Shown: positions 7,883 to 15,837 of the stretch, in pieces
Numbering within the stretch: the first letter of the stretch is position 1
Layout of the letters: each line of letters begins with the position of its first letter
Source: Chlorobiaceae bacterium
Lineage (GTDB): Bacteria; Bacteroidota; Chlorobiia; Chlorobiales; Chlorobiaceae
Assembly (NCBI GenBank): GCA_013334975.1
Contig: JAAXWL010000010.1
Location: 4,601 to 39,533, forward strand
Length of the DNA: 34,933 nucleotides
Reading direction: 5' to 3'
Notes under the pieces: generated by a model
What the model was told of the DNA's origin: nothing
The model's database searches: none
The model's input: the letters and a program-made list of their open reading frames with translations, nothing else
Made by a program: the position numbers and the translations under genes

Positions 7883-8623
7883 TTATTTCCGGTCTGCCGC
7901 CGAGTTGAACTGCACGAGCTTCGGCCAGTCAATGGCTCCGTTACTATTGCAATATTCCCTACCGAACTCCATTGTGAACCGGTTGAGCATCTGGGCGTAG
8001 GATTGCTGGAACTCTTCGTTTTTCTCTTGAGCCTTGTGGCCAAGTGGCTCGATGATTTCCGTGTAGAGATCGTGCTTTCCTGATATGAAGGCCCAGAAAT
8101 CCTGTCCGCAATATTTGAAATAGTCGCCCTTGTCGGGATTTTTGTCCCGTCCATAGCAGCAGCCGTTGACTGCGACCACCTGAATTCCGGAGTTGCTGGT
8201 GCGAAGCGTCTTTTGTGCGGACTTGAAATCCGTGATCATCTTTTTGATTTGACTGCTGTTTCCCCAGTTTGGGCCGGATTTGATGTTGACGATGTAGCGA
8301 CAGCCATCACGGTCGAATTCGAGATCGATGCCCGGGATGCCCGATTTTCTGCCGCTGAACACTTTCGCATTGATGAAAATGGCGAGTCCTTCGAGCCAGT
8401 CTCCGAAAACGGTCTCCTCGTTCGAGGAGATGTGGACATCGACCAGCCCTCTGACAATCTGTTCCGCCGTCAGAACATATTTGGCTTTGAAGAGGTAAGG
8501 GTTTTTCCTTCCCAGCACTTTGGATAGTTTCAGGCTGTCGAGGCTGGCGATTCTTTTCTGGTGAAAAACGCCGATATTGTTTTCAACGTAAATCGATACA
8601 TAGCTGAGGTTCAGTTGGAGCAT
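7883..8623 (-). CDS. Type II restriction endonuclease, PmeII-like
   Basis: Probable nuclease partner of the adjacent DNA methyltransferase. From the ATG at 8623 (MLQLNLSYVSIYVENN) it has 246 residues; the frame is open to 8677, but those extra residues lie deeper inside the methylase gene. Near residues 105-130 a GIDLEF strand, a turn, and VNIKSGPNWGNSSQ form a PD-(D/E)xK-type core with N-I-K in the last position. The AVNGCCYGRD and GQDFWAFISG blocks are, from memory, characteristic of PmeII-type enzymes; the recognition site cannot be read from the sequence. The gene overlaps the methylase 3' end by 41 bases, so the pair is probably translationally coupled. It lies tail to tail with the helicase. 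No frame lesion is visible. Confidence 0.7.
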   Translation of the reverse strand: MLQLNLSYVSIYVENNIGVFHQKRIASLDSLKLSKVLGRKNPYLFKAKYVLTAEQIVRGLVDVHISSNEETVFGDWLEGLAIFINAKVFSGRKSGIPGIDLEFDRDGCRYIVNIKSGPNWGNSSQIKKMITDFKSAQKTLRTSNSGIQVVAVNGCCYGRDKNPDKGDYFKYCGQDFWAFISGKHDLYTEIIEPLGHKAQEKNEEFQQSYAQMLNRFTMEFGREYCNSNGAIDWPKLVQFNSAADRK

Positions 8624-9464
8624 AACTGTCCTTGTTTTCAAGCAGGTAGAGTTCCACCGGTCTGAGTTCATTTTCAACCATCTTGCAATACTCCGGCAAG
8701 ATTTCGATGCCGATGGAGTTGCGCTTCATGCGCTGGGCGACGGCGTTGGTGGTTCCTGAACCCATGAAGGGATCGAGCACCGTGTCGCCCTCTTTGGTGA
8801 AAAGTCTGATGAACCATTCGGGCAGCCCTTCGGGGAATGCTGCGCTGTGGTTCTTGTTGTTGCACTCGGTGGCCAGGTGCAAGACGTTGGTGGGATAGGC
8901 CATCTCCCGCGTGAGCCAGTTGGAGATGTTCTTGCCGAAGCCGCTGCCGACTTTCGATTCGTCGCGCAACATGTCTGTTTCACTCAACTTTTTCAGCCGT
9001 TTTTTCGACCAGTCGCCCATCGGCACCATGACCGCCTCCTGATACATGGTGAAATGGTGGTTCTTGTTGAACTGGATGAGCCGTTCCCACGAGTCGCGGA
9101 AACGGTTGGGCCACTTGCCGGGATAGCAGTTTTTTTTGTGCCAGATGAACTCTTCGGTCCAGAGCCACCCTTGCTGCCGCCGCATTTCGAGAATGAGCTC
9201 CATCACGTAGATGCTGCGTTCGCCGTTGACCACTTTCTCCTTGATGTTGAGGATGAAGGTACCGCTTGGCCTGAGCACCCGCTTCAGTTCTTCTGATATC
9301 GGCAGAAACCAATCGACATACCGGTCGGGATGTATGCCACCATAGGTGTTTTTTCGCTGGTCAGCATAGGGCGGCGAGGTGAAAATCAGATCCACCGAAT
9401 CGTCCGGAAGTGTTCTCAGTACTTTTTTGCTGTCGCCGAGAAGAATGTCTGTCCTGATTTCCAT
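8583..9464 (-). CDS. Site-specific DNA methyltransferase (beta-type)
   Basis: S-adenosylmethionine-dependent DNA methylase of the restriction-modification pair. The 293 residues have the catalytic motif TSPPY (29-33) before the SAM-binding DPFMGSGTT (231-239), the beta-class order. TSPPY is common in N4-cytosine enzymes but also occurs in N6-adenine enzymes, so the modified base is uncertain. The middle segment (about 100-200: KWPNRFRDSWERLIQF, WLTREMAYPTNVLHL) is the likely target-recognition region. The start is the ATG at 9464, with AAGG about 11 bases upstream. It precedes and overlaps the nuclease gene, so methylase is made first, which fits self-protection. The locus sits between genes unrelated to it, as expected for an acquired cassette. 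Confidence 0.92.
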   Translation of the reverse strand: MEIRTDILLGDSKKVLRTLPDDSVDLIFTSPPYADQRKNTYGGIHPDRYVDWFLPISEELKRVLRPSGTFILNIKEKVVNGERSIYVMELILEMRRQQGWLWTEEFIWHKKNCYPGKWPNRFRDSWERLIQFNKNHHFTMYQEAVMVPMGDWSKKRLKKLSETDMLRDESKVGSGFGKNISNWLTREMAYPTNVLHLATECNNKNHSAAFPEGLPEWFIRLFTKEGDTVLDPFMGSGTTNAVAQRMKRNSIGIEILPEYCKMVENELRPVELYLLENKDSYAPTEPQLCIDLR

Positions 9465-11388: not shown

Positions 11389-11973
11389 ATGATACGAGTT
11401 GAAGATGTGCTCAGGGCTTACCGGCATGGCTTCTTTCCCATGGCCGATTCCCGTGAGGGCACGGTGAGCTGGTGCCAGCCCTATCAGAGGGCGGTGGTAC
11501 CTCTCGATCAGTTCCAGCCATCGAGGAGCCTTCGGCGGATCATCGCCGAAAGACACTTTTCCATCAGGATCGATTCTTCGTTTGAAAGCGTGATCAGGGC
11601 TTGTGCCCTTCCGCGTTCGATCGAAAAAGAGACCTGGATTTCAGAAGAGATTATTGATGTGTTCATCCGGCTGCATCGGATCGGGCTTGCGCACAGCATC
11701 GAGAGCTGGCAGGGAGGAGAGCTTGCCGGGGGGCTGTACGGTATAGCGATGGGGGGCGCTTTTTTCGGGGAGTCGATGTTTTTTTTCAGGCCGAACGCCT
11801 CAAAGGTCGCTTTTGCGTGGCTGGTCTCCTATCTCAAACGGAAAGGGTATCATCTGCTCGATGCCCAGATCATGAATCCTCATTTGCAGCAGCTCGGCGC
11901 CATCGAAATTCCTCATGAAGAGTACATGCAGCAACTCGAAACCGCCCTGACTAAAAAAATTCCCTTTATCTGA
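11389..11973 (+). CDS. aat: Leucyl/phenylalanyl-tRNA--protein transferase
   Basis: Transfers Leu or Phe from aminoacyl-tRNA to the N-terminus of proteins with basic N-terminal residues, marking them for ClpS/ClpAP degradation (N-degron pathway). The 194-residue product is a compact family member. Signatures are AYRHGFFPM (residues 10-18), WCQPYQRAVVPL (28-39), SRSLRR (45-50), GELAGGLYGIAMGGAFFGESMFF (about 109-131) and ASKVAFAWL. It starts at the ATG at 11389, 21 bases after the nitroreductase gene, so it is likely co-transcribed. No lesion is seen. Confidence 0.95.
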   Translation: MIRVEDVLRAYRHGFFPMADSREGTVSWCQPYQRAVVPLDQFQPSRSLRRIIAERHFSIRIDSSFESVIRACALPRSIEKETWISEEIIDVFIRLHRIGLAHSIESWQGGELAGGLYGIAMGGAFFGESMFFFRPNASKVAFAWLVSYLKRKGYHLLDAQIMNPHLQQLGAIEIPHEEYMQQLETALTKKIPFI

Positions 11974-12048
11974 AAAATGGATGGCGATTGTTATGGTTGC
12001 TTCAGGGCATCAATTTACGGTCGTCAAACAGAGAAAAAAAGAAGCTCC

Positions 12049-12462
12049 ATGAACAAGAAACGGTTATCAGGATTTATTTTGACTCTGGTCATGAGTGGTA
12101 TTTCAAGTGGAGTGTCGTTTGCGACCGAGAGTGCATCACCTATCACGAATCAGAGGGGCACGGCATCTGATTCCGGGAAGATCGCTATCCGGGAGGTTCC
12201 AAAAACCGGCGGATGGTCAAAATTCGGCGTTCTTTCAGCCAAAGAAAGGGCACTATTCAATAATGCTATGGCCGACATTGTCGAGGTGCATTATGAACCA
12301 CTTGCTGTCAGAAAGCAGGTGGTCGCCGGTATGAACTACAACTTTTTCTGTAACGCCCGGGTGATGGTTCCGGGGAGTGAATGGTATCCGGTAATGGTGC
12401 ATATCTATAAACCATTGCAAGGCAAGGCTGTGGTGAATATTGGCAGAACCGAAAAGCTCTGA
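12049..12462 (+). CDS. Secreted cystatin-like protein
   Basis: A 137-residue exported protein. Residues 1-25 form a Sec signal peptide (basic MNKKR, hydrophobic core, SGVSFA cleavage region). The mature part resembles the cystatin/stefin fold by eye: a Gly-rich segment TGGW (53-56), a helix (62-80), QVVAG at 90-94 followed by MNYNFF, a strand pair, and VHIYKPLQGK (117-126), which parallels the LKVFKSLPG stretch of stefins. In cystatins, the N-terminal Gly and QxVxG loop insert into papain-like cysteine proteases. Inhibitory activity here is inferred. I chose the ATG at 12049 over the in-frame ATG at 11977 because only the former starts with a signal peptide. It follows aat by 75 bases. A single Cys (101) remains in the mature part. 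Confidence 0.7.
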   Translation: MNKKRLSGFILTLVMSGISSGVSFATESASPITNQRGTASDSGKIAIREVPKTGGWSKFGVLSAKERALFNNAMADIVEVHYEPLAVRKQVVAGMNYNFFCNARVMVPGSEWYPVMVHIYKPLQGKAVVNIGRTEKL

Positions 12463-12502: not shown

Positions 12503-12780
12503 ATAGTGCCATGTCAAGCTTAAACTGACGTATGTTACGGAGTCATTGATTTATCCAGATCGAAATCGGTATCGGTATCGGTATCGGTATCGATTATTTG
12601 TGTGAAAAAAACCGGTTTCTGACTGTATCAGTATAATAATAAGATGGTTATGACAATAAACCACAATTCACGGTGAGTTTTGGTTCAGCCATCGCAAGAG
12701 GAAATCGATATCGATTTCGATGATAAAGTCAAATCCGATTATTTACCGTTGACATGACATTTGCTTCAATATGACACTAT
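12503..12780 (+). repeat. Hexamer-cored dispersed repeat, copy C
   Basis: Occupies most of the 338-base spacer between the cystatin-like gene and the acyltransferase gene. The left tract (12559-12593) has ATCGAA, four ATCGGT units and ATCGAT, the longest uninterrupted tract in the window. It is followed by the AAAACCGGTTTCTG and CCACAATTCACGG modules and an inverted right tract at 12703-12722. ATAGTGCCAT at 12503-12512 and ATGACACTAT at 12771-12780 are inverted with one mismatch and may be termini. There is no coding capacity. Confidence 0.78.
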
Positions 12781-12800: not shown

Positions 12801-13820
12801 TTATGTGACCGGCTTGAGTGAGTGCTTTTTGAGTCGGAGTGCTGGCTTTTCTATGAAAAACCATGAAAATATTGAGATGCAGAATGTCATAACCGTAGCC
12901 AGCAACAAATTTTTTATGGATATGACCAGCAGGAAATTGATGACTGGCATGTGCCATATATATACCCCGTAACTGAAGTCAAAGGGAAGTTTTACGTAAC
13001 GTAAACCAAAGGATATCCAGAGTATCAGAGTTATATAACAGAGGAAATACAATAGTCCGAGGGTGTTGCCTTGCGTATTCAGAAGGAAATTCTTGTGTGA
13101 ATATTTCATCATGAAAAGCATGAAAGGAAAAGCAATGTAAAAGTATTTCAGCGACGTGCGATACACATGAAAATATCGGACGGCCAGTATTCCAAAACCA
13201 AACATCCAACCCCATACGACAGGAGTGAGCGCGAGAATGTCGTAAACGGTTCTGTCTCTGTAAACAGGACGGGTCAATACGTGAGGTCCTGCTGCGTAGA
13301 GTGAAAAAGAGATGATAATCAGTATCCAGAGGGTATATCGAAATCGTCGTTCCAGTGTTACAATGAGAGGAATACAAAGGTAAAAAAGGATTTCTGTTGT
13401 GATAGTCCAGAGTGAGCCGTTTATGACGCCTACTCCGATATCGCGAAAATGTGAAGGGTTGTAAGCTTGTCCGATTGTCAATTGGGAGAGAATCCAGATT
13501 CCGTACGTTGAAAAGTGCGTTATGAAATCACTTGGAGCGTGAGCATACATCGCCAGAAAGGCGCCTCCTGTTGTTACAAAGAAAAGGGCGGGAAAAAGGC
13601 GGAGAAACCTGTTAACGAAATAGCGTTTTCCTGGTGTGTTTATGTAAGAAGCATAAATCAGAAATCCGCTTACAAAAAAAAAGGCAGGAACACCCGGAAA
13701 ATAGTTGATAAAATGAGGAATTTTAAGTCCAAAATGATCTGCACCATGTACCAGCAGAACCTGTGTGGCAAAGATCAGTCTCAACCATTCGAAGTTATTA
13801 TGACGTGGAAAATCAAGCAT
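12801..13820 (-). CDS. Acyltransferase 3 (OafA/NodX-type) membrane protein
   Basis: Integral membrane O-acyltransferase that probably acetylates or acylates a surface polysaccharide or lipid-linked sugar. The ATG at 13820 gives 339 residues with about ten hydrophobic segments. Conserved features are NNFEWLRLIFATQVLLVHG (residues 7-25, with the family's conserved His), FFFVSGFLI, RFLRLFPALF (family R-x10-H region) and the C-terminal YIWHMPVINFLL and IEKPALR. A TTG start at 13865 would add 15 residues; neither has a clear ribosome site. Base composition is visibly more AT-rich than the flanking housekeeping genes. It is isolated between a repeat and a gene-poor spacer, so horizontal acquisition is plausible. 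Confidence 0.88.
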   Translation of the reverse strand: MLDFPRHNNFEWLRLIFATQVLLVHGADHFGLKIPHFINYFPGVPAFFFVSGFLIYASYINTPGKRYFVNRFLRLFPALFFVTTGGAFLAMYAHAPSDFITHFSTYGIWILSQLTIGQAYNPSHFRDIGVGVINGSLWTITTEILFYLCIPLIVTLERRFRYTLWILIIISFSLYAAGPHVLTRPVYRDRTVYDILALTPVVWGWMFGFGILAVRYFHVYRTSLKYFYIAFPFMLFMMKYSHKNFLLNTQGNTLGLLYFLCYITLILWISFGLRYVKLPFDFSYGVYIWHMPVINFLLVISIKNLLLATVMTFCISIFSWFFIEKPALRLKKHSLKPVT

Positions 13821-14535
13821 TGACTGAAAGGTAACTCTTGGTTTAGTGAATCTTTCAACGATCAATCAGGAACAGCATGTCCTGGTTTACGCTGGATATC
13901 TTCAATTTCGGGTAAAGCAAAGACGGATTTTATACATTGTACGTTTTTTTTGTTTCCGGAGAAATAACCGCCGAATCCGGTCATTTCTGCTCTTTGTCGG
14001 GAACCCTGCTTAAAAATGCGTTCCGTTTTCTTTCAGGATAAAGTTAACAATTTTGACTTGTATTCAAACAGAATGCAGGGTGTTCAACCAGTGAAGTATA
14101 TTATGATATAACATATTGTAAAATAGATGATTATATTTATGTGTTTCTGACAGTCCTGATTTTAGTGGCGCGATTTCCGCTTCTTGTTTGGTGTGATTAC
14201 ATCATAAAATCGTCGATTCTTTTGGGTGCTGCTTAGAGAGTAAATGCTGTAATATTGCTTTTTTTAGGTTTTGAGATTGGTGAAAATACAGTATTCTGAT
14301 CAGGTCGGTATTGGAAACCGGTGAAGTGTTTTTCCGGTTGTTTTCTGATCAGGAGCACTCTTGTCAGCAGCGCTTTCTTTGAATCTGTTCAGTCTGCAAG
14401 ACTCGAATTGTCTTCATTATCATACGATCACCTGACAGAGTGGTCGTTTTTTGATAAAGTTCTCATAAAAATGGTAACTTCACAGGTTGTTTCTGTCGTT
14501 CTCACTTTTCAGCTCGCTTAAAAGGAGTCTACCGC
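13821..14535. other. AT-rich spacer between acyltransferase and arsA-like gene
   Basis: A gap of about 715 bases with no gene I can support. It is AT-rich, especially around 14090-14150 (runs such as ATATTATGATATAAC), and should carry divergent promoters. A 66-codon open frame at 14321-14521 shows no protein-like pattern and is not called. A good ribosome site (AAAAGGAG, 14520-14527) marks its right edge. No hexamer repeat is seen here. Confidence 0.5.
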
Positions 14536-15837
14536 ATGCTGTCGAGGGATTTAACCGAAAACCAGTCTCTTCCGAGGGTCATCATTTATTCCGGTAAAGG
14601 GGGGACGGGTAAAACCACCATCTCTTCATCGACGGCAGTCGCTCTTGCCCGACAGGGCAAACGGGTGCTGATCATGTCTTCAGATCCAGCCCATTCTCTC
14701 TCGGATGTCTTCGATGTCCAGATAGGAAGGAACGATCCGCTCAGGATCGAAAAGAACCTGTATGGTCTCGAAGTCGATACTATCTACGAGCTGAAGAAGA
14801 ATATGTCGGGTTTTCAGAAATTCGTCTCTTCGTCATACAAGAACCAGGGGATCGACAGCGGTATGGCCTCCGAGTTGACCACCCAGCCTGGTCTCGACGA
14901 GATATTCGCTCTTTCCCGCCTGCTTGACGAATCGCAGTCCGGCAACTGGGACGTCGTCGTGCTCGATACCTCGCCGACCGGTAACACTCTGCGTTTGCTT
15001 GCCTATCCGGAGATCATCATCGGTGGCAATATGGGCAAGCAGTTTTTCAAGCTCTACAAGAGCATGTCTTCGCTTGCACGTCCACTCAGTGGCAATAACA
15101 TTCCGGATGACGACTTTTTCAACGAGGTCAATGTGCTGCTCAAGCAGATGGAGGATATCAACCGCTTTATCCTGAGTCCCGAGGTGACCTTCAGGCTGGT
15201 GCTGAACCCCGAGAAGCTTTCGATTCTCGAGACCAAGCGTGCCTATACCTTTGTCCATCTCTATGGCATCAATATCGATGGTATCGTGATCAACAAGATT
15301 CTGCCTACCTCGCGTACGGTTGGAGAGTATTTCGAGTTCTGGGCAGACCTGCACAGCCGTTACCTCATGGAGATCGATAACTCCTTCTATCCGACTCCGG
15401 TATTCAGATGTCACCTCCAGCGTACCGAACCGATCGGTGCGGATGCGCTTTACAGCATCAGCCAGTTGGTGTTCGGTGACCAGGAGCCCGATCGTATCTT
15501 CTATTCGGGAAAAAACTTCTGGATCGAGAGCCAGAAAAATCAGGTCACGACTGACCATAGGGAGATTCTCTGTATCAGGATTCCGTTCCTTAGTGATGCC
15601 GAAGATGTGTCGGTAGAGCGAATGGGTACCGACATGATCGTGACGGTCGATCGGGCCCAGCGGATCATCACCCTGCCCAGGGCGCTGTACAGCCTCGATA
15701 TGGAGCGCTTCATCAGGGAAGACAATACTCTCAGGGTCGTTTTCAAGGAGATTCCTGTTGAAAAGGGAAGCATGGAGCTGAACGTCAACAAGAATGTGCT
15801 CGACAAGCTGCGCTCCATGCGTCGCCTGAAGATATGA
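14536..15837 (+). CDS. ArsA/GET3-type ATPase with C-terminal HSP20-like domain
   Basis: Deviant Walker-A P-loop ATPase of the ArsA/GET3 family. The 433 residues contain SGKGGTGKTT (19-28), switch I region SSDPAHSLSDVF (48-59), switch II LDTSPTGNTLRLL (about 143-155) and a GIVINKILP strand. The last ~90 residues (REILCIRIPFLSDAEDVSV...) resemble the alpha-crystallin-like tail seen in Chlorobi ArsA proteins. The paired arsenite-binding Cys of true ArsA are absent and no arsenic genes are nearby, so a role in arsenic export is unlikely. Green sulfur bacteria carry several such paralogues; a protein-targeting or chlorosome/envelope-assembly role is a possibility only. The start is the ATG at 14536 with AAAAGGAG 8 bases upstream. 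Confidence 0.88.
   Translation: MLSRDLTENQSLPRVIIYSGKGGTGKTTISSSTAVALARQGKRVLIMSSDPAHSLSDVFDVQIGRNDPLRIEKNLYGLEVDTIYELKKNMSGFQKFVSSSYKNQGIDSGMASELTTQPGLDEIFALSRLLDESQSGNWDVVVLDTSPTGNTLRLLAYPEIIIGGNMGKQFFKLYKSMSSLARPLSGNNIPDDDFFNEVNVLLKQMEDINRFILSPEVTFRLVLNPEKLSILETKRAYTFVHLYGINIDGIVINKILPTSRTVGEYFEFWADLHSRYLMEIDNSFYPTPVFRCHLQRTEPIGADALYSISQLVFGDQEPDRIFYSGKNFWIESQKNQVTTDHREILCIRIPFLSDAEDVSVERMGTDMIVTVDRAQRIITLPRALYSLDMERFIREDNTLRVVFKEIPVEKGSMELNVNKNVLDKLRSMRRLKI

Follow-up and report, generated by a model that had tools for sequence, protein, structure and literature searches.

The forward-strand open reading frame at positions 12049-12462 encodes a 137-residue protein that we assign, with a probability of about 0.75, to the stefins (type 1 cystatins, MEROPS I25) as a signal-peptide-bearing bacterial member and putative inhibitor. 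Positions are those of the window, the whole 34,933-nucleotide stretch of Chlorobiaceae DNA that was analyzed. An 82-residue cystatin-type domain follows a predicted signal peptide and a disordered linker, and the features of the protein are these.

12049-12123, + strand: Sec signal peptide predicted over residues 1-25 (MNKKRLSGFILTLVMSGISSGVSFA), with a basic n-region, a hydrophobic core, and an A-type end
12124-12201, + strand: linker of low conservation and variable length, residues 26-51 (pLDDT below 50 over residues 16-47)
12202-12447, + strand: cystatin/stefin-type domain, residues 52-133 (AlphaFold2, Foldseek, and a profile E value of 3e-9 to 6i1m)
12208-12213, + strand: Gly54-Gly55, the N-terminal contact segment, aligned to the Gly-Gly pairs in stefin A and 6i1m
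12316-12330, + strand: QVVAG, the first hairpin loop, residues 90-94, at the turn between strands 80-92 and 94-105
12349-12351, + strand: Cys101, the single cysteine, in the FxC strand, kept in at least 90% of relatives
12409-12423, + strand: KPLQG at residues 121-125, forming the second hairpin loop, which joins strands 113-122 and 128-133

The sequence-only reading had held a secreted inhibitor of this kind to be unexpected in an anaerobic phototroph. Bacterial stefins have in fact been known since 2009, that of Chlorobaculum tepidum included (PMC2784779). Our analysis adds the predicted export signal, a fixed and probably old locus, and a mismatch with the C1 proteases of the organism itself; a small, single-domain, predicted exported protein at a fixed locus in genomes without a C1 protease makes a clean case in which to ask what use a bacterium has for a papain inhibitor.

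Searches with the single sequence gave little. PF00031 was the sole Pfam family matched (E = 0.2, 12.4 bits versus a cut-off of 22.2), a search of the whole genome with PF00031 at E 1e-3 returned no match, phmmer found a weak match to the Fasciola cystatin 6i1m, and Pfam, NCBIfam, and phmmer yielded no match beyond such weak ones. We first gathered 11 relatives from the genus, family, and phylum, and a later set of 26 domains spanned several phyla; profile matches confined to residues 1-55, present in many Chlorobiaceae, reflect the signal peptide and low-complexity linker and were left out of the stefin set. Searched against all PDB sequences, the 26-domain bacterial profile retrieved 6i1m, a secreted Fasciola stefin (E = 3.3e-9), potato multicystatin (E = 1.4e-5), and, across the domain, human stefin A (E = 7.5e-4), with nearly all matches down to E 1 being cystatins. 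An hhalign comparison with five classical cystatins gave a probability of 94.7 (E = 5.7e-8). Homology to the cystatins (MEROPS I25/PF00031), as first suggested from motifs, is thus recovered by the profile, with the single sequence lying under the Pfam cut-off.

The AlphaFold2 model of the domain (pLDDT 90.6, pTM 0.80) shows the expected order of one helix followed by four strands (helix 64-73; strands 80-92, 94-105, 113-122, and 128-133). The short helix, of 11 residues in this model, packs on an antiparallel sheet in the manner of the four- or five-stranded cystatin fold, and when the model was searched with Foldseek, the first 27 matches all belonged to the cystatin superfamily (cystatins, stefins, and fetuins). 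The best of these had a probability of 1.00 with a modest E value of 2.4e-3, and TM-scores were about 0.5 to 0.7. The predicted helix-on-sheet architecture is therefore borne out by the model, and with the profile, hhalign, AlphaFold2, and Foldseek results taken together, membership in the cystatin superfamily is secure.

With respect to the contact edge, the sequence-only reading had named a Gly-Gly segment, an exact QVVAG loop, and an EWYP/KPLQG second hairpin. Gly54-Gly55, QVVAG, and KPLQG hold as its three parts, and from the places of these motifs in the model, the N-terminal Gly, QxVxG, and the second hairpin would share one edge. EWYP drops out of this set, as residues 111-114 form the connection of strand 3 to strand 4, which lies at the far end of the sheet from the contact edge, and are not conserved outside close relatives in the 26-domain alignment. 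The order and spacing of the motifs are kept in all 26 of these divergent bacterial proteins: the first Gly of the pair is nearly invariant, QxVxG has the same Q, V, and G in 26/26, and the P and G of the KPLQG loop are invariant or nearly so, with Leu123 at the stefin-type position. What varies among relatives is the exact QVVAG (QAVEG, QIVEG, QVVEG, QVVNG, and QLVNG all occur), so that the expected conservation applies to the pattern rather than to the five letters. We give next to no credence to the idea that QVVAG matched by chance and that the small secreted protein is unrelated to cystatins, a reading that the single-sequence Pfam E value of just 0.2 would have allowed, and that profile, fold, and conservation contradict.

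Within the superfamily, the loop residue Leu123, the single Cys, and the short connection between strands 3 and 4 agree with the stefins, which have no inter-strand insert and no disulfide pair, and in which the second loop (L2) carries Leu where true cystatins carry Trp (PMC9986714). The earlier cystatin-like identity is accordingly upheld for the superfamily and refined, the protein being of stefin type rather than a true cystatin. Type 2 cystatins such as cystatin C and chicken cystatin resemble the protein in being secreted and in having QxVxG, but their second-loop PW, their insert, and their two disulfides are absent from it (KPLQG, single Cys). Human stefins A and B (I25, type 1) have a similarly compact domain that lacks the large insert seen in true cystatins, and the second loop reads KSLPG in stefin A versus KPLQG here; they are, however, cytosolic, with no signal peptide or linker and with the Gly at the extreme N terminus. 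Since classical stefins are intracellular and a signal peptide is predicted here by eye and hydropathy, we call the protein stefin-type rather than a classical stefin. The best match in both sequence and fold is FhCyLS-2 of Fasciola hepatica (6i1m), itself a secreted exception among the intracellular stefins (PMC9986714). Both proteins combine a stefin architecture and L2 Leu with Gly-Gly, QVVAG, and a signal peptide, whereas FhCyLS-2 has two disulfides and a longer helix region, as opposed to the single Cys of the bacterial protein, and identity is about 25%. Chagasin-type inhibitors (ICP, I42) are also bacterial C1 inhibitors with a similar wedge but have an unrelated immunoglobulin-like fold; PF09394 found no match in this stefin-bearing genome, and the protein itself matches just PF00031, weakly.

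The start of translation is placed at the ATG at 12049, which orthologues have in common (MKQRF.../MKKKF...); a longer in-frame start at 11977 is also present. The signal peptide proposed earlier from the sequence is confirmed in composition, being of the hydrophobic n/h/c type with the ending VSFA and a 12-residue Kyte-Doolittle maximum of 1.87 at residue 7, and it is kept, like the start, across orthologues. The linker that follows is weakly constrained among them (pN/pS 0.60). Export of the protein is what this predicted signal peptide would imply, and, because neither a type 9 signal nor any other for outer-membrane export was recognized, the protein may stay periplasmic.

Orthologues are found in 11 of the 21 genomes of the genus, with 10 of them lying between aat and an ArsA-type ATPase gene and one (G006) elsewhere. 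In the window, this locus reads as follows.

11389-11973, + strand: aat, leucyl/phenylalanyl-tRNA-protein transferase, the conserved upstream flank (PF03588, E = 1.5e-66)
12801-13865, - strand: acyltransferase, between the stefin and ArsA genes (PF01757, E = 1.8e-17)
14536-15837, + strand: ArsA-type ATPase, the conserved downstream neighbor (PF02374, E = 1.2e-76)

No copy of the acyltransferase was found at the equivalent place in the syntenic relatives. In genomes without the stefin gene, aat adjoins the ArsA-type ATPase gene across a short gap, the exception being G019, whose retrieved stretch showed no aat. A tree of the flanking genes, several of whose deep forks are weakly supported, places the bearers together except for one subclade, which appears to have lost the gene, and G006. 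The domain is under purifying selection, with dN/dS of 0.10 to 0.28 in close pairs and far less constraint on the linker. Some copies have diverged: Glu replaces Ala in the loop of G003, G016, and G002, the first Gly pair reads GV or GS in some orthologues, and an in-frame stop interrupts the G002 copy ahead of the domain. Two further observations concern the surroundings of the gene. Near-identical ATCGGT repeats (atcggtatcggtatcggtatcg) form a short run at 12560-12600, about 100 bases downstream, and 7883-9464 (- strand) holds an EcoO109I-family type II restriction endonuclease (PF14511, E = 7.8e-89) beside an N6/N4 DNA methyltransferase (PF01555), close homologues of the methyltransferase being present at the same place in most of the syntenic relatives checked.

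The likely targets of the stefin were approached through the C1 (papain family) proteases of the genus. The organism's own genome has no match to PF00112, the one clan CA family covered by the search. Across the 21 genomes, 4 carry both genes, 7 the stefin only, 7 a C1 protease only, and 3 neither, so that co-occurrence is not enriched and tends to be negative (Fisher P = 0.20). The PF00112 papain-like genes (L072-L079) are scattered over the genus, have no evident signal peptide, and are absent from the genome studied here. We regard it as very unlikely that the stefin is an endogenous regulator of, or immunity factor for, a C1 protease of the same or sister Chlorobaculum cells. Such a role would draw on the PF00112 proteins in 11/21 genomes (in 4 together with the stefin gene), those that were read showing recognizable catalytic Cys, His, and Asn motifs, but 7/11 stefin-bearing genomes, the present one included, have no PF00112 match, the counts show no enrichment, the two genes are unlinked, and the C1 proteins have no signal peptide on inspection where the stefin has one. 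No association with an own C1 protease was thus found.

The absence of a C1 protease and of chagasin from the genome, together with the absence of a genus-wide pairing of C1 and stefin genes, points to foreign proteases as the likely targets. Candidates would be proteases that arrive at the cell envelope or in its vicinity, for example cathepsins with which bacterivorous protists digest their prey, or C1 enzymes that other microbes secrete. With a linker ahead of the Gly-Gly, endopeptidases would be more likely targets than exopeptidases, because N-terminal elongation of stefin B lowers cathepsin H inhibition, according to a title cited in PMC7863939. We consider it possible, if doubtful, that a free-living phototroph exports the stefin for use against grazers or competitors, disarming the digestive cathepsins of protists or the C1 proteases of neighbors; if so, the exported and lipoprotein stefins found across bacterial phyla would represent a general, unrecognized envelope defense against papain-like proteases.

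C1 protease inhibition by the bacterial stefin is suggested by its conserved contact motifs, and we found no inhibition measurement for any bacterial stefin in the literature consulted. The cystatin fold can be repurposed, as in monellin, which is non-inhibitory, and SQAPI, which inhibits aspartic proteases. A protein that keeps the fold and has ceased to be a C1 inhibitor, serving instead in the periplasm for binding or as an adaptor or, like SQAPI, inhibiting another protease class, is in our view unlikely. The absence of a C1 protease from the genome would fit it, as would the loop and N-terminal substitutions of the G003 and G016 orthologues (QIVEG with GV, and QAVEG) and a weak SQAPI Pfam match in some relatives (best E = 0.014); that match is, however, far under the cut-off and covers the shared QxVxG strand, and QxVxG and the L2 Pro and Gly are kept over large divergence. 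A role in C1 inhibition gains support from one Bacteroidota protein (L050, and L070:8037-8648) in which a weak I42 (chagasin-like) match below the cut-off is followed by a stefin domain, which would unite C1 inhibitors of two kinds in a single chain; a chagasin-stefin fusion has been described in Bacteroides fragilis (PMC2784779). In the Bacteroidota case, a second stefin gene lies on the opposite strand at a distance of about 1 kb.

Related stefins are spread across Bacteroidota, Lentisphaerae, Bacillota, and others. Relatives lacking a signal peptide are present in other Bacteroidota, an apparent lipoprotein lipobox is seen in the UBA1790, Sodaliphilus, and Lentisphaeraceae records, and Oscillospiraceae hold a secreted or lipoprotein-like relative. 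No common functional partner was evident by eye among the neighbors of the non-syntenic copies. We take G003 to be C. tepidum TLS; it carries an orthologue at the same aat/ArsA locus, which is probably the gene behind the C. tepidum stefin of Kordis and Turk. These authors reported stefins in eight bacterial phyla in 2009, with Chlorobium (now Chlorobaculum) tepidum as the one Chlorobi genome, and described them as patchy, recent acquisitions by transfer into bacteria that were proposed to act on host proteases (PMC2784779). The proteins belong to the same superfamily, share QxVxG, and in the case of C. tepidum come from the same genus in its current sense; in contrast to the pattern of patchy recent acquisition (PMC2784779), the Chlorobaculum gene has a predicted signal peptide and a fixed, probably old locus.

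Cystatins are mainly eukaryotic, and a phylogeny had been proposed earlier as a means of asking whether the gene came from eukaryotes. In a small tree (91 columns, few eukaryotes), the bacterial domains group together (support 92/88), as do those of Chlorobaculum (96/93), and the locus is fixed and probably old in the genus. Recent acquisition from a eukaryote, which the distribution of cystatins and the argument of Kordis and Turk for transfer into bacteria (PMC2784779) would favor, finds no support in these results and is highly improbable, given the fixed aat/arsA locus, its ten orthologues, the single clade-wide absence, and the grouping of the domain with bacterial stefins. An ancient transfer from eukaryotes may still be compatible with a tree of this size and eukaryote sampling.

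With respect to phages, the stefin had no match in the phage collection. Stefin-domain relatives do occur on 11 contigs classed as viral (L094-L104), several of them among bacterial-looking genes; these could represent flanking host DNA or genes next to a prophage, and the surroundings of the 11 loci, read by eye, offered no clear case of phage cargo. One of these contigs (L096, 102-5246) encodes a 1715-residue protein, in which a suspected papain-like domain was not confirmed by Pfam, and which combines GLUG, bacterial Ig-like, cadherin-like, and copper amine oxidase N-terminal domains with a C-terminal stefin domain.
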